Assembly (NCBI GenBank): GCA_026391835.1
Contig: JAPLDF010000036.1
Coordinates: 1 to 38,171, forward strand
Direction of reading: 5' to 3'
Source: Bacteroidota bacterium
Lineage (GTDB): Bacteria; Bacteroidota; Bacteroidia; Bacteroidales; FEN-979
DNA: 38,171 bases
A program made the position numbers and the translations under genes. The notes under the pieces are model-generated. The model was not told the DNA's origin and made no database searches. It saw nothing but the letters and a program-made list of their open reading frames with translations. Positions 1,666 to 12,393 of this stretch are shown one piece after another (position 1 is the stretch's first letter; every line of letters starts with the position of its first letter).

Positions 1666-4600
1666 ATGCAAATCGATCCTTCCATCACTGTTAAAAACGC
1701 CTCCGAACACAACCTCCGTTCGGTCACCCTTGAATTCCCTAAAAACAAGCTGATCGTGGTCACGGGTGTGTCCGGTTCAGGCAAATCATCCCTTATCTTC
1801 GATGTGCTTTACCGGGAAGCTGAAAGCCGCTACCTTGGTTCATTCTCCTCGTTTGCCAGGCAGTTCATGGGCAAGCTGAAAAAACCGGATGTGGAGAAGG
1901 TGGAGGGACTTTCGCCGGCAGTGGCCCTCGACCAGAAATCGGTGGTCTCAAATCCCAGGTCAACCGTTGGAACCATAACAGGAATCTATGATTCCCTGCG
2001 CCTGTTGTTTGCACGTGCGGGACAACGGCCCGCTGAAGCAGTTCACTTCCCTGTGAACCGCAGCCTGTTTTCATTCAATTCGCCCGATGGTGCCTGTCCT
2101 GCCTGCAAAGGACTCGGTGTTGAAGACTTTCTCGATCCTGAACTGCTCGTATCTGACGGGACCAAAACCCTTCGCGAAGGAGCGTTGGTGATCACCGCGC
2201 CCAACGGCTACATCATCTATTCGCAGGTTACCCTCGATGTCCTTGACCAGGTGTGCCGGTCGGAAGGTTTTCATATTGACATCCCGTGGAAGGATCTCAC
2301 CCCGGAACAGAAACACATTGTCCTCTACGGCAGTGACAAGATTGAAATCCCGTTTGGCAAACACCCGCTCGAATCGCGGATGAAATGGAGCGGGATCACC
2401 GCAAAACCACGCGAACTGGGTTATTACAAGGGCATCCTTCCGGTGATGGAGACGATCCTTCAACGTGACCGTAACAAGAATATCCTTCGCTTCGTGAGAA
2501 GCGGGCAATGCAGTGCCTGCAATGGCCGCCGGCTGAACGAAAGAGCGCTTTCTGTTACCATCCACGGATACAACATTGCTGAACTTGCAGCGCTGCAGCT
2601 GGATGATCTCCGGGACACCCTTCAGGCAATCAGCTTCACAAAAGATGAAGCGTTCATCGCCAGGCCAATTGTAGCACAGGTGTCAAAGCAGGTTGATCTC
2701 CTGAAGCGGCTGGGACTGGCATATCTATCCACCGGCCGGGATTCAACCACCCTCTCCGGGGGCGAATCGCAGCGCCTTCGCCTGGCCACCATGGCCGGGA
2801 TGGGACTGAGCAACATGATCTGTATTTTCGACGAGCCATCGATCGGGTTGCACCCGCATGACATCGGGCAATTGATTGGAATTCTGAAGGAGATCCGCAA
2901 TAAAAACAACACAGTTATCGTGGTCGAACATGATGAGGAGTTCATCCGTCATGCCGACTGGCTCATCGATATTGGCCCCGGACCCGGTGTTCACGGGGGT
3001 GAAGTTTTGTTCAACGGCCCACTGGAGGAGGCTTTTAAATTGCCTGAACCCGAAATCCGGAAGAGCCGTACGTTATCCTTTCTGAATGGTTTTGAAACGA
3101 TCCCGGTACCTGTCATCCGCAGGCATGGTTCCGGGTTCATTGCCATTGAAGGGGCTGAGGCGAACAACCTCAGGAATATTGATGTTGCATTCCGGCTGCA
3201 GGCGCTGAATGTTGTAACAGGCGTGTCGGGTGCGGGGAAGTCAACACTGACAAACCATATCCTGGGGGCTTTTTTAAAGAACAGACTGCATCATGCCAGC
3301 GAAAATGTGGGTAAATTCAGGGAAATCAAAGGATGGGAAGCGATCGGGAAACTGATTTCGATCGACCAGTCGCCGATCGGGCGGACACCCCGCAGCAACC
3401 CGGCCACCTACACCGGCGTGTTCGACCTTATCCGTGATTTGTTTTCACAACTGCCCGAATCGATCCGCCGCGGGTACGACAAAAGCCGTTTTTCGTTCAA
3501 CACCCTGGGTGGGCGTTGCGAGACCTGTGAAGGTGCCGGCTACCAGCAGATCGGCATGCATTTTATGGGAAATGTGGAGGTTTTGTGCGAGGTTTGCGGG
3601 GGGCGCAGGTTTGATGCGGATACCCTCGAAATTGCTTACCCGGCCGACGTAACTTCAGGTCAGGGGAAAAACATCTCCGAAATTCTCGAAATGACGGTGT
3701 CGGAGGCGATCTCCTTTTTCAACGGCGAAGTTAGAATCCTGCGTTATCTTGAAACGCTTGACAACCTGGGGCTCGGGTACCTCACGCTGGGGCAGCGGTC
3801 TTCGACCCTGAGCGGCGGGGAGGCCCAGCGCATCAAACTGGCCACTGAACTGGCTAAGCCAACATCAGTGCACACCCTCTACATCATGAATGAACCGACC
3901 ACGGGCCTCCACCAGGCTGACACCGGCGTCCTGTTGCGGGCGCTCGACGGCCTGGTCAGCCAGGGCCATACGGTGATCCTGACCGAACATCACCCGGGGC
4001 TTATCGCTGCAGCCGATCATGTCATTGACCTGGGCCCGGGAAGCGGCCGCGACGGAGGATCTTTGCTTTTCTCGGGCACACCGGAGGAGATGGTTTTTTG
4101 CAAGGGATCGCTCACGGCAGACGCACTGAAAGAATATCTATGTCAGATTAACGATTTACGATTTACGAATGACGATTTACGATTTAGGAAAGAGGCGTGC
4201 CCGGGAGAAAAGAATGTTTCACAAACAATCGCCGATCAATTTGTTTCTGAAAATCGTAAATCTAAAATCGTAAATCGTAAATCAATTTTCCTTCACGGCG
4301 TTTCCACCCATAATCTAAAGCACATCAACACAGTCATCCCCCATAACAAGATCACCGTCATCACGGGGGTTTCGGGAAGCGGGAAGTCATCGCTGGCATT
4401 CGACACGATTTTTGCGGAGGGGCAGAACCGTTTCCTGGAGAGTTTTTCGCCCTATGTGCGGTCCCGCCTCGGTGTGATGGAACATCCCGACGTGGAAGAG
4501 ATCTCCGGCCTTACCCCCACGTTTGCCGTCAGCCAGGGCAGTACCGGCAACAACCCACGGTCAACTGCCGGCACCATGACCGGAATTTACGATCATTACA

Positions 4601-6735
4601 GACTGCTGTTTGCACGTATTGGGAGAAGGAACGGGAAAGAAGAATATCGAATATTGAACATTGATCAACGAAGTTCGAACCCGGAAATCGTAAATCGTAA
4701 ATCCAAAATCGTAAATCCCTCTTCCACCCTGTTTTCCTTCAACCACCAGCATGGTGCCTGCCCCGTATGCGACGGATTGGGTTTTCAAACCGTTTGTGAT
4801 GCGGACAAGCTGATAACCGATCCTCAAAAACCGCTGCCTGCCGGGGCGATGGACGGAACAAAAACGGGAAAATTCTACGGTGATCCCTACGGGCAGTATA
4901 TTGCCACGCTCCGGGCAGTAGGTGCCAGGCATGGTGTTGATTATAACCAACCGTGGTGCGATGTTCCTGAAAATGGCAAACAGTTGGCCCTGGAGGGTAC
5001 CGGTGATGAGCAGTATGAAGTCAACTGGCAATTCATGCGGGACGCCCGCACCGGCGAACATCATTTCAGCGGGCCATGGAAAGGCTTGCTAAACCTGGTA
5101 AATGACGAGTACCTGCGCAAGCATGCCGACCACCGCGGCGAAAGCATGATGGCACTCATGAAAACGGCATCGTGCCCGTCGTGCCTCGGGTCCCGGTTGC
5201 GAAGCGAAGCGCTGGATTATACCATTAACGGGGAGGACATTGCCGGGTTATCCTCATTTTCAGTGGGAAGGTCGATCGGATTTTTCAAATCGCTCTTCCA
5301 GGCATTTACCGCTCCCGGCGAGATGGAAATTGCCTCCCCGCTGGTGAATGAGATCTTGCGGAAGCTTGACTATTTATCAGGGCTGGGCTTGTCATACCTT
5401 ACCATCGACCGCATTTCATCAACCCTGTCGGGTGGCGAGGCCCAGCGCATCAGGCTGGCCGGGCAGCTGGGCTCAGGACTGACTGGTATTACCTATGTAC
5501 TCGATGAACCGACCATCGGCCTGCATCCAAGGGATACCGGCAACCTGATGCAACTGATCCGCTCCCTCCGGGATGCAGGGAATACGGTGATCATCGTTGA
5601 ACATGACCGTGATGTCATCCTGGCAGCTGATCATGTGATCGATATCGGTCCCGGGGCAGGTAAAAACGGCGGACAGGTGGTTGCCGAAGGAACCCCGGAA
5701 CAGGTGATGAACAATGTGCATTCAGTCACCGGGCCTTATCTTTCTGACAATTCCAACATGCTCGGGGCTGGCCACGGCAACAACCGCGGGGTCCTTCCTG
5801 CAAACAGCCGGCGCCCGTTAACCCGGGGGCTTACGATCCGAAATGCCTTTGCGAACAACCTCAAGGGGTTCGATCTCGAAATTCCCGCCGGCGGCATCAT
5901 TGCAATCACCGGCGTTTCGGGCAGCGGTAAATCGACGCTTTTGTTCGAGGTGGTCCTTGCCTCATGGGAAAATAAAAAACCAACAGGATGCTCATCCATA
6001 GAAGGATTTGATACGTTTCAGCGGGTTGTGGGAGTTCACCAGCGTACCGGGTTCAGTTCCCCGCTTGCCACACCGGCCACCTTCACCGGTATTTTTGAAC
6101 AGATCAGGAATTTGTTTGCATCCTTGCCGGATTCAAAACAATCGGGTTTCGGGAAAAACTCTTTTTCCTACCTGAACAGGGACGGGCGGTGCCCGGTTTG
6201 CGAAGGGACAGGGCAAATACGCATCTCCATGGATTTTCTGCCGGATGTCAGCATGGAATGCGAACAATGCCAGGGAAAACGTTACAGGCCGGAAATTTTA
6301 TCGTGCACATACCATGGGAGAGACATTGCGGATATCCTGAAAATGACGGTAGACGAGGCCCGTCACTTCTTTGCTGACCAGCACAACCTTTGCCGGCAAC
6401 TGGGGGTACTTGAACAGGTGGGGTTGGGCTATCTTCAGCTCGGTCAGCCGCTTGACACCCTTTCGGGCGGCGAAGCACAGCGGCTTGCCCTGGCTTCCGA
6501 ACTGATGAAGCCCGGAAAGGGCGCAACGCTCTATCTTTTTGAAGAGCCTTCCACCGGGCTGCATTTCCGCGACATTGAATACCTGCTCGCCCTGTTTCAG
6601 CAACTGGCCGACATCGGAAACACCCTGCTCATCATCGAACACGACCCCATGATCATCGCCCAGGCCGACCATGTCATTGAACTCGGTCCGGAAGGGGGTG
6701 ATGCCGGTGGATATCTCGTTCACCACCAGGGATAA
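1666..6735 (+). CDS. uvrA: tandem UvrA: two UvrA2-like proteins in one chain
   Basis: A 1689-residue ABC-type DNA-damage-recognition ATPase with four nucleotide-binding modules. Residues 1-825 and about 873-1689 are each a complete UvrA-like protein. Walker A motifs include GVSGSGKSS (near 34), GVSGAGKST, GVSGSGKSS and GVSGSGKST, and all four modules have LSGGE signatures. Zinc-finger CxxC pairs occur as CPAC/CSAC, CETC/CEVC, CPVC/CPSC and CPVC/CEQC. Both halves run directly from LLFARxGxR to LFSFN, so the UvrB-binding domain of canonical UvrA is missing, as in UvrA2-type proteins linked to tolerance of DNA-binding drugs. Walker B is DEP in modules I and III, but NEP in II and EEP in IV. Repeat-derived peptides form the linker (about 826-873) and an insert (about 993-1017). 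UvrA normally dimerises, so this may be a single-chain dimer. A fused UvrA is known from Chlamydia. The start is placed behind the -7 box. Confidence 0.93.
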   Translation: MQIDPSITVKNASEHNLRSVTLEFPKNKLIVVTGVSGSGKSSLIFDVLYREAESRYLGSFSSFARQFMGKLKKPDVEKVEGLSPAVALDQKSVVSNPRSTVGTITGIYDSLRLLFARAGQRPAEAVHFPVNRSLFSFNSPDGACPACKGLGVEDFLDPELLVSDGTKTLREGALVITAPNGYIIYSQVTLDVLDQVCRSEGFHIDIPWKDLTPEQKHIVLYGSDKIEIPFGKHPLESRMKWSGITAKPRELGYYKGILPVMETILQRDRNKNILRFVRSGQCSACNGRRLNERALSVTIHGYNIAELAALQLDDLRDTLQAISFTKDEAFIARPIVAQVSKQVDLLKRLGLAYLSTGRDSTTLSGGESQRLRLATMAGMGLSNMICIFDEPSIGLHPHDIGQLIGILKEIRNKNNTVIVVEHDEEFIRHADWLIDIGPGPGVHGGEVLFNGPLEEAFKLPEPEIRKSRTLSFLNGFETIPVPVIRRHGSGFIAIEGAEANNLRNIDVAFRLQALNVVTGVSGAGKSTLTNHILGAFLKNRLHHASENVGKFREIKGWEAIGKLISIDQSPIGRTPRSNPATYTGVFDLIRDLFSQLPESIRRGYDKSRFSFNTLGGRCETCEGAGYQQIGMHFMGNVEVLCEVCGGRRFDADTLEIAYPADVTSGQGKNISEILEMTVSEAISFFNGEVRILRYLETLDNLGLGYLTLGQRSSTLSGGEAQRIKLATELAKPTSVHTLYIMNEPTTGLHQADTGVLLRALDGLVSQGHTVILTEHHPGLIAAADHVIDLGPGSGRDGGSLLFSGTPEEMVFCKGSLTADALKEYLCQINDLRFTNDDLRFRKEACPGEKNVSQTIADQFVSENRKSKIVNRKSIFLHGVSTHNLKHINTVIPHNKITVITGVSGSGKSSLAFDTIFAEGQNRFLESFSPYVRSRLGVMEHPDVEEISGLTPTFAVSQGSTGNNPRSTAGTMTGIYDHYRLLFARIGRRNGKEEYRILNIDQRSSNPEIVNRKSKIVNPSSTLFSFNHQHGACPVCDGLGFQTVCDADKLITDPQKPLPAGAMDGTKTGKFYGDPYGQYIATLRAVGARHGVDYNQPWCDVPENGKQLALEGTGDEQYEVNWQFMRDARTGEHHFSGPWKGLLNLVNDEYLRKHADHRGESMMALMKTASCPSCLGSRLRSEALDYTINGEDIAGLSSFSVGRSIGFFKSLFQAFTAPGEMEIASPLVNEILRKLDYLSGLGLSYLTIDRISSTLSGGEAQRIRLAGQLGSGLTGITYVLDEPTIGLHPRDTGNLMQLIRSLRDAGNTVIIVEHDRDVILAADHVIDIGPGAGKNGGQVVAEGTPEQVMNNVHSVTGPYLSDNSNMLGAGHGNNRGVLPANSRRPLTRGLTIRNAFANNLKGFDLEIPAGGIIAITGVSGSGKSTLLFEVVLASWENKKPTGCSSIEGFDTFQRVVGVHQRTGFSSPLATPATFTGIFEQIRNLFASLPDSKQSGFGKNSFSYLNRDGRCPVCEGTGQIRISMDFLPDVSMECEQCQGKRYRPEILSCTYHGRDIADILKMTVDEARHFFADQHNLCRQLGVLEQVGLGYLQLGQPLDTLSGGEAQRLALASELMKPGKGATLYLFEEPSTGLHFRDIEYLLALFQQLADIGNTLLIIEHDPMIIAQADHVIELGPEGGDAGGYLVHHQG
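4147..4283. repeat. inverted AAATCGT repeat pair inside uvrA
   Basis: The coding region between the two UvrA halves holds an ACGATTT-oriented tract (about 4150-4186) and an AAATCGT-oriented tract (4251-4283), about 65 bp apart. They are the same family found in the spacers at 211-485, 8870-8907, 9568-9600, 17130-17160 and 31265-31293. They are read in frame as NDLRFTNDDLRF and ENRKSKIVNRKS. The arms could form a long hairpin in the mRNA. Confidence 0.85.
4642..4717. repeat. compound intergenic-type repeat inside uvrA
   Basis: A GAATATCGAATATTGAACA-type element (also seen at 12093-12142, 13745-13783 and 31187-31225) is followed by AAATCGT units, all read in frame as residues about 993-1017. 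The insertion falls between LLFARIG and TLFSFN. This is where canonical UvrA proteins carry their UvrB-binding domain. Confidence 0.8.
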
Positions 6736-8148: not shown

Positions 8149-8844
8149 ATGAACAAAGTAGTCAACAATGCCCATGAGGCAATCAAAGGGATAGAAAGCA
8201 GGATGACCCTGATGCTGGGCGGGTTCGGCTTATGCGGGATCCCCGAAAACTGTATTGCAGCGCTTGCTGCCAGCGACATCACCGGGCTTACCTGCATTTC
8301 GAACAATGCGGGGGTAGATGGGTTCGGTCTTGGGATGCTCCTGCGACGGCACCAGATCCGCAAGATGATCTCTTCGTATGTGGGTGAGAACAAGGAGTTT
8401 GAACGGCAGCTGCTCAGCGGTGAACTTGAGGTGGATCTTATCCCCCAGGGAACACTTGCTGAACGCATCAGGGCCGGCGGGGCAGGCATCCCTGCATTTT
8501 TCGTTCCGGCCGGGTATGGCACCGAAGTGGCGGACGGGAAGCCTGTTCGTGAATTCGACGGGAAAATGTATCTCGAGGAACACTGGCTGAAAGCCGATTT
8601 TGCCATCGTAAAGGCCTGGAAAGGAGATACCCACGGCAACCTGGTCTACAAATCTACGGCCAACAACTTCAACCAGGTTATGGCCACTGCCGGAAGGATC
8701 ACCATTGCCGAAGTGGAAGAACTTGTACCGGCCGGCACGCTGGATCCCAACCATATCCATACGCCGGGCATATTCGTCCAACGGATTTTCCAGGGAACCA
8801 ATTATGAAAAAAGAATCGAATTTGCCACAACCCGCCCTGATTAG
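8149..8844 (+). CDS. scoA: 3-oxoacid CoA-transferase subunit A
   Basis: The 231-residue alpha subunit of succinyl-CoA:3-ketoacid CoA transferase. With subunit B it moves CoA from succinyl-CoA to acetoacetate. The glycine-rich GGFGLCGIPEN, SNNAGVDGFGLG, GTLAERIRAGGAGIPAF and FVPAGYGTEVADGK are typical of the family. The start is the Met of MNKVVNNAHEA, behind a -7 box; a 25-codon upstream extension is rejected because it covers the promoter. It is the first gene of the Phe/Tyr operon and, with its partner, would activate the acetoacetate that fumarylacetoacetase releases. Confidence 0.93.
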   Translation: MNKVVNNAHEAIKGIESRMTLMLGGFGLCGIPENCIAALAASDITGLTCISNNAGVDGFGLGMLLRRHQIRKMISSYVGENKEFERQLLSGELEVDLIPQGTLAERIRAGGAGIPAFFVPAGYGTEVADGKPVREFDGKMYLEEHWLKADFAIVKAWKGDTHGNLVYKSTANNFNQVMATAGRITIAEVEELVPAGTLDPNHIHTPGIFVQRIFQGTNYEKRIEFATTRPD

Positions 8845-8845
8845 T

Positions 8846-8907
8846 CAATTGTCACTTGTCACTTGTCATTCGTCAATCGTAAATCAAAAATCGTAAATCG
8901 TAAATCA
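8846..8907. repeat. short repeats between scoA and scoB
   Basis: The spacer consists of GTCACTTGTCACTTGTCATT-like units followed by AAATCGT units. If read through in frame, the AAATCGT part would add NRKSKIVNRKS to the front of ScoB. Confidence 0.75.
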
Positions 8908-8910
8908 CCT

Positions 8911-12232: not shown

Positions 12233-12393
12233 ACTTTGTGACTTTGTGACTTTGTGACTTTGTGACTTTGTGACTTTGTGACTTTGTGACTTTGTGACTT
12301 TGTGACTTTGTGACTTTGTGACTTTGTGACTTTGTGACTTTGTGACTTTGTGACTTTGTGACTTTGTGGACTTTGTGACTTTGTGACTTTGTG
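12233..12393. repeat. 20-copy octamer tandem repeat (ACTTTGTG)n
   Basis: Seventeen perfect uninterrupted copies of ACTTTGTG (12233-12368), one extra G, then three more perfect copies. The gap from hpd to fahA (12093-12498) contains this array and the element before it, and no gene. The minus strand is open through the array (SHKVTKSQ, 8-residue period), but this is a property of the repeat, not a gene. Copy number should be prone to slippage. Confidence 0.97.

Follow-up and report, generated by a model that had tools for sequence, protein, structure and literature searches.

How does a repeat that belongs between genes come to be read as protein inside a conserved enzyme, and what becomes of it there? 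The question is raised by contig JAPLDF010000036.1 of a Bacteroidota bacterium (assembly GCA_026391835.1), whose 38,171 nucleotides (nt) form the window analyzed here, a part of a 5.35-Mb genome in 86 contigs (G000). The window contains a tandem UvrA-like gene, here called uvrA, with four arrays of 7-bp units inside its open reading frame (ORF). These arrays are read in frame and lie at two places, a loop in the second UvrA half (the slot) and the linker between the halves; in related species the same places hold different heptamers, and the heptamer family in a slot matches the families of the surrounding genome. We consider it likely that heptamer arrays from intergenic spacers have lodged in frame in a few loops that tolerate translation and that, at these sites, the position persists while the sequence turns over.

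Heptamer arrays in a tandem UvrA-like gene

The features of the gene to which the argument refers are the following.

1666 to 6735, + strand: tandem UvrA-like gene encoding 1689 amino acids (aa), an uninterrupted ORF identified by Pfam and by alignment of half 2 to solved UvrAs
about 1666 to 4128, + strand: UvrA half 1
4129 to 4293, + strand: linker between the UvrA halves (residues about 822 to 876), with inverted heptamer arms around a core, identified from the arms and from RNA folding
4140 to 4190, + strand: left arm of the linker, a lag-7 array of ACGATTT, peptide NDLRFTNDDLRFR
4249 to 4286, + strand: right arm of the linker, a lag-7 array of AAATCGT inverted relative to the left arm (arm match), peptide ENRKSKIVNRKSI
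about 4285 to 6735, + strand: UvrA half 2
4618 to 4743, + strand: slot in half 2 (residues 985 to 1026), defined by the alignment gap and low model confidence described below
4640 to 4671, + strand: GAATATC/GAATATT heptamer array in the slot, found as a lag-7 array and by pattern matches
4675 to 4718, + strand: AAATCGT heptamer array, also in the slot, with a single open frame

Two of the four arrays within positions 1666 to 6735 therefore lie in the slot (4640 to 4718) and two in the linker. Matches to AAATCGTAAATCGT with at most two mismatches numbered 36 in the window, compared to 0.37 expected and a maximum of 3 in 100 shuffles, and GAATATTGAAC with at most one mismatch matched 8 times, compared to 0.97 expected; the copies at 4649, 13763 (minus strand), and 31191 are exact. 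Chance or low complexity is ruled out by the shuffles and by neighboring lags.

Pfam placed UvrA_DNA-bind in two stretches of the 1689-aa protein (P0001), together with ABC_tran. In an alignment of half 2 with the UvrA of G. stearothermophilus (PDB 2R6F), the first block ended at residue 137 (LLFARIGR) and the second started at residue 283 (LFSFN), and the slot falls in the gap at residues 138 to 282; these 145 residues hold the UvrB-binding domain. A preliminary description of this DNA, made from the sequence alone, had placed an insertion at the position of that domain and had reported two fused spacer-type repeats at 4642 to 4717, translated in frame. Our analysis bore out both statements: GAATATCGAATATTGAAC starts at 4642, AAATCGTAAATCGTAAATCCAAAATCGTAAATC occupies 4685 to 4717, and the two are translated as EEYRILNIDQRSSNPEIVNRKSKIVN within the 1689-aa ORF. 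It also bore out the spacer-type origin of the repeats that encode the peptide, both DNA families being common elsewhere in the genome.

The repeat did not displace the UvrB-binding domain, because half 1 lacks the domain too (its own loop is 19 aa long), as do three relatives from other genera (G019, G020, and G023) that have no slot array and whose slots are 21 aa long. With loops of about 19 to 21 aa in all of these, displacement of the domain by the repeat was ruled out. By sequence comparison, the tandem gene is UvrA2-like; the repeat occupies a short leftover loop, and the loss of the domain is older than the repeat. An AlphaFold2 model of half 2 based on 22 sequences had a mean predicted local distance difference test (pLDDT) score of 80.6, with values below 50 at model residues 121 to 143, which are residues 992 to 1014 of P0001 in the slot, and likewise at 493 to 508 and 652 to 654. 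The best Foldseek matches of the model were UvrAs, with class I entries at the top; 2VF7 came 17th and Ecm16 37th, so that the fold search does not single out class II. Eight cysteines were invariant among the half-2 sequences (n = 22), namely C161, C164, C299, C302, C638, C641, C661, and C664, in the same order as that given for zinc modules 2 and 3 in Ecm16. Separately, half 1 of G009 (L038) carries a 64-residue insertion after the position of P0001 residue 301 that is composed of TIHADEKTIQAYEDTIHEEEGTI-type repeats and contains no lag-7 array.

The same places hold different heptamers in related species

A protein-level homolog search gave matches in 41 of 41 genomes, distant ones among them; G022 and genomes of the same order entered this search only. 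The uvrA comparison set consisted of the tandem-gene ORFs, whole or partial, of 23 genomes, comprising G000, 18 others of the same genus, and 4 of the same family. Arrays were called as self-matches at a lag of 7 nt over a 21-nt window with an identity of at least 0.76, across 25 ORF rows and 113 kb from these genomes. Of 41 lag-7 counts (40 distinct arrays, one linker array of G003 having been read in two overlapping ORFs), 26 lay in the linker, 15 in the half-2 slot, and none elsewhere. At lag 8, four arrays were called (one in the half-1 loop of G021 and three elsewhere), and lags of 5, 6, 9, 10, and 11 gave none in these 25 ORF rows. This threshold gives 13 of the 23 genomes with an array in the slot and 15 with one in the linker; arrays in the slots of G008 and G018 and in the linker of G013 were seen by eye but fall below it. 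G024 (L027), whose sequence breaks off early in half 2, was inspected separately from the main comparison; its linker is fused through, and it contained no lag-7 or lag-8 array.

The families occupying the slot, as judged by eye, differ from species to species. AAATCGT with GAATATC was present in G000 and G009 and a short AAATCGT array in G018; CGTCACG was present in G001, G003, G008, and G014; GAAATCC in G004 and G013; GGCAGTT in G017; and GAATATC in G002, G005, G012, and G015. In G016 and G021 the slot holds a GGGGAGGGG-type palindrome, which in G021 lies beside a lag-7 array of another family. The resulting peptides share no sequence (e.g., AVGSRQL, PPSSLAP, and EYRISNN), and across the 23 genomes there was no conserved insert sequence common to the orthologs; the observation that the preliminary description had named as its refutation therefore did not arise. 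In a quick maximum-likelihood tree of 23 rows with the slots removed, slot family required at least 10 changes and linker family 11, and slot presence required only 3, which suggests that the place persists longer than the sequence. The preliminary description had seen a recent or ongoing colonization of coding DNA; this is not supported by the comparison, in which the slot carries a lag-7 array in 13 of 23 genomes and seems to have been long occupied while the heptamer changed. In the sister pair G011 and G006 (L015 and L016), there are very few matches of five heptamer families, and slot and linker are nonrepetitive but similar in length; they are perhaps decayed arrays.

Heptamer families in the surrounding genomes

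In 678 kb of G000, 78 lag-7 arrays were called, compared to 4 at lag 4, 10 at lag 6, 30 at lag 8, 11 at lag 9, 3 at lag 11, 4 at lag 13, and none at lag 5 or 10. Crude ORFs contained 16 of the 78, 4 of them in uvrA. Among 144 arrays sampled from 19 genomes, with the uvrA region of G000 left out, 15 lay well inside ORFs of at least 150 aa; the arrays are thus dispersed and mainly intergenic. AAATCGTAAATC alone has 273 matches across G000.

A family census from samples of 17 to 60 kb in 18 relatives included 4 without any lag-7 array, which is too little DNA, and whole-genome pattern counts of five doubled heptamers in the 23 genomes were used instead; reversed-pattern controls gave 0 or 1 match per genome and strand. 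The counts differ strongly between genomes: GGCAGTY had 158 matches in G017 and 0 in G000, and CGTCACG had 175 in G017, 80 in G008, and 0 in G000. With the uvrA matches removed, the family found in the slot was overrepresented in its own genome (mean z of 0.75; permutation P = 0.0008; 14 genomes). Arrays are also more numerous in the 14 genomes with an assigned slot family than in the remaining 9 (P = 0.0019), G016 and G021 being placed among the 9. Doubled AAATCGT occurred in 21 of the 23 comparison genomes compared to 43 of 295 genomes of the class (G000 included), where matches were usually few, with a maximum of 39 outside G000.

Stop codons as a probable filter

A perfect AAATCGT array of three units (21 nt) leaves one sense frame open, and one of four units leaves none; the earlier statement that such an array has a stop in every frame is therefore correct from four units on and incorrect for three. 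Among spacer AAATCGT arrays with a core of at least 21 nt, 11 of 17 could be read through in the sense direction in one frame or more, the mean number of open sense frames being 0.82 of 3. Each of the two sense-strand AAATCGT arrays in the uvrA gene of G000 has a single open frame out of three, which is also the frame in use, and sense AAATCGT survives in uvrA through variant units. GTTAAGT and AATTTTT, which are closed on both strands, are spacer families of G000, yet they are missing from the uvrA arrays; CGTCACG appears in uvrA slots in the open reading direction.

Arrays in two further genes

A NifS-like cysteine desulfurase fused to SelD is another holder of in-frame arrays. In the NifS-SelD fusions of the 23 genomes, 23 of 23 lag-7 arrays lay either in the linker (16) or in one aminotransferase loop (7); the limits of these regions had been drawn from G000, the owner of 3 of the arrays, and the other genomes alone gave 20 of 20. 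Two arrays were called at lag 8, both in the loop, and none at lag 5, 6, 9, 10, or 11 in the same 23 genomes. Here, too, the families vary, with CGTCACG in G008, GAAATC(A/C/T) in G016, and GGCAGTT in G021. A loop of a DegT-type aminotransferase holds an array in 2 (those of G000 and G016) of 10 homologs from 9 genomes; of the homologs without an array, four have a loop shorter by 6 to 7 residues, and the other four are array free.

The linker, its inverted arms, and alternative explanations

The left and right linker arrays are usually inverted copies of each other. In G000 the arms have an inverted match score of 25, compared to 3 for the direct match. The preliminary description had quoted peptides from the linker and did not report the arrays at 4140 to 4190 and 4249 to 4286 or their inversion. 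Arm families are ACGATTT/AAATCGT in G000 and G013, CCAATTG type in G008, and GAATATC type in most others. Miniature inverted-repeat transposable elements have terminal inverted repeats; the linker arms here are inverted in 11 of 15 linkers but are heptamer arrays of no fixed sequence.

The arrangement raises the possibility that the arms are an RNA or DNA hairpin element, selected in the mRNA for pausing, attenuation, or processing between the two halves, and possibly a relic of the spacer between once-separate genes. Arm complementarity exceeded a z of 4, relative to mononucleotide shuffles, in 11 of 15 array-bearing linkers (G013 included and G003 left out as too short), and the arms of a species paired better with each other than with those of different species (P = 4e-4). 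Window positions 4135 to 4295 fold, as RNA, at -44.9 kcal/mol (z of -4.5). Of 20 linkers, 9 had a fold z value no higher than -2.8; control windows in the genes average about 0, and the most negative of them reached -3.7. Among the nine is G019 (L014), whose linker is a different, GGGG-rich palindrome without heptamers (z of -5.2). Outside genes, 4 of 6 neighboring spacer array pairs sampled in G000 are inverted, 1 is direct, and 1 is unrelated. However, six array-bearing linkers (G017, G005, G012, G020, G016, and G015) show no hairpin excess, and a hairpin would leave the slot arrays unexplained, since the slot pair of G000 is not inverted. We regard a selected hairpin as unlikely on the whole and, for the linker site, as a real alternative.

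A second alternative is that the array peptides are themselves selected, as flexible or basic linkers or as DNA-contacting loops for which heptamers are a convenient source. Slot and linker are filled in many species, R, K, N, and S are abundant in several of the peptides, and the linker is exactly 177 nt long in 8 of 20 species, with three families among them (G000 has 177 + 21 nt). The lengths may also hint at replacement in place with the register kept. A functional loop is nevertheless improbable in view of peptides without any common sequence, of relatives that lack a slot array altogether (G019, G020, and G023), and of the nonrepetitive sequence of similar length in G006 and G011.

The third alternative is a phase-variation switch, in which the gain or loss of one 7-bp unit turns half 2 or the fusion off and on. 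Seven is not a multiple of 3, so that single-unit changes do shift the frame, and in G003 the UvrA halves lie in different frames at a shortened linker. Imperfect repeat units lower slippage, however, and the units here are mostly imperfect; moreover, of the 23 genomes that allow a judgment, which G021 does not, 22 have a single ORF spanning the linker, G003 being the broken one. The G003 case is a difference between species, and we find a switch very hard to credit. In that genome (L032, about 3905 to 3964), the linker is a short palindrome, and by eye there is no ATG, GTG, or TTG in frame ahead of half 2. Finally, although all 13 relatives with record titles (9 Bacteroidales, 2 Draconibacterium, 1 Bacteroidetes, and 1 Alphaproteobacteria) are metagenome assembled, an artefact of assembly or binning is practically out of the question, as is chance low complexity, since the pattern recurs in separate genomes and in both uvrA and NifS-SelD, reversed-pattern controls gave 0 or 1, and lags of 5, 6, 9, 10, and 11 gave nothing in either gene.

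Probable turnover at fixed sites

We hypothesize that a spacer array enters or survives in a gene only where the protein tolerates a floppy peptide and where the heptamer contains no stop codon as read there, on the given strand and in the given frame. Once occupied, a site would stay occupied while its heptamer family is replaced; species would then share the place and not the sequence. The replacement may proceed by slippage and by copying from other arrays, either as gene conversion or by template switching; the two inverted arms of the linker may also copy from each other. The array peptide itself may be neutral filler. It is tempting, but at this stage quite tentative, to see in this a bacterial counterpart of the concerted evolution of satellite DNA, in which arrays at fixed sites would be rewritten unit by unit, often with length and register kept.

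Several points weigh against turnover at persistent sites. The limits of slot and linker in the uvrA set were drawn only after the alignment had been viewed, and slot families were assigned from it by eye. The count of presence changes on the tree takes the palindromes of G016 and G021 as present, whereas the genome-abundance test puts both among the 9 genomes without a slot family; conversely, G008 and G018 were counted among the 14 despite slot arrays below the threshold. Support was below 80% on 10 of 20 inner branches of the tree, so that the change counts are rough. With one genome per species in the sample, insertion or loss within a species is not visible. G007 has 245 AAATCGT matches genome-wide, yet no lag-7 array in uvrA. 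The uvrA and NifS-SelD arrays of the same genome were no more alike than pairs from different genomes (P = 0.22 to 0.27 for k = 6 to 8; 14 genomes). The idea of one dominant family invading every site of a genome is, on the same comparison, unsupported.

Throughout one genus, spacer repeats are present in coding DNA at shared tolerant positions of two or more unrelated enzymes. If turnover at fixed sites is what happens, conserved enzymes carry a species-specific, nonhomologous peptide at a homologous place. The arrays would then provide a natural map of the loops and linkers of UvrA-like and NifS-SelD proteins that tolerate arbitrary peptides, as well as a tractable system for studying how bacteria rewrite 7-bp arrays. 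They would also be a warning for homology-based annotation, in that peptides encoded by repeats are not domains.

Other repeats in the window

Two intergenic features of the window contain the same heptamers.

320 to 492, no strand assigned: inverted pair of lag-7 arrays in a spacer, ACGATTT type at 320 to 361 and AAATCGT type at 417 to 492, identified by arm match
8837 to 8909, + strand: spacer between CoA-transferase-like A and B genes, with GTCACTT units giving way to AAATCGT units just ahead of the next start codon

Positions 214 to 255 are an identical 42-bp direct copy of the array segment at 320 to 361, 64 bp apart from it. The spacer upstream of the CoA-transferase-like B gene has a lag-7 array in 10 of 18 genomes, with differing upstream units. 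By eye, and with no control, AAATC was seen within the last 20 bases ahead of the B-gene start codon in 11 of 18 genomes (8845 to 8910; L124 to L141), as if it were favored as an A-rich translation-initiation region. Other repeats include an 8-mer, ACTTTGTG, present 20 times with a 98% match at 12233 to 12393, apparently in a spacer, and a 21-bp unit (ATTGCTC ATTGATC ATTCCTC) repeated 4.5 times without mismatches at 4 to 98.

Comparison with known systems

Two UvrA copies per chain are likewise found in the double-length UvrA described by NCBIfam NF001885/PRK00635 (model length, 1809), presumably chlamydial. The tandem gene scored 1086.7 bits against a cutoff of 3054 and is therefore not a member of that family. 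In the open-licence literature we found no report of a tandem UvrA, only papers on class II UvrAs. Those papers describe class II UvrAs, among them Ecm16 and the UvrA2 of D. radiodurans, as having no UvrB-binding domain (PMC5128194, PMC10192343). The tandem protein resembles them in having the UvrA fold, no UvrB-binding domain, and the cysteines of two zinc modules, but it differs in that two halves are fused in tandem (1689 aa) with repeats in loop and linker, UvrA2 being of single length.

Heptamer spacer repeats and in-frame palindromic elements are both already known; what may be new is the turnover of heptamers in frame at fixed loops, of which we found no report in the open-licence literature. 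Rickettsia palindromic elements, to which the preliminary description had compared the insert, are described as elements of 105 to 146 bp with terminal inverted repeats (PMC2229807). The comparison holds as an analogy, in that spacer-type repeats lie in frame within conserved protein genes; it fails in that no single conserved element was seen here, only arrays of 7-nt units whose families differ between species and sites.

Heptameric spacer repeats are another known counterpart. TAACTGA is reported from Beggiatoaceae, Cyanobacteria, and five Bacteroidetes; in one of its orientations every frame is stopped, and modular proteins may tolerate its insertion between their parts (PMC4679880). Xanthomonas has the heptameric repeat GGGAATC, and Nostoc has GGGGA(C/T)T (PMC4692102). 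Such repeats share with ours the 7-bp unit and a dispersed, mostly intergenic distribution, some touching or lying inside genes. Our arrays differ from those descriptions in that there are many families per genome, with sister species differing at the same site, and in having fixed in-frame sites in conserved enzymes and linker arms that are inverted and covary.

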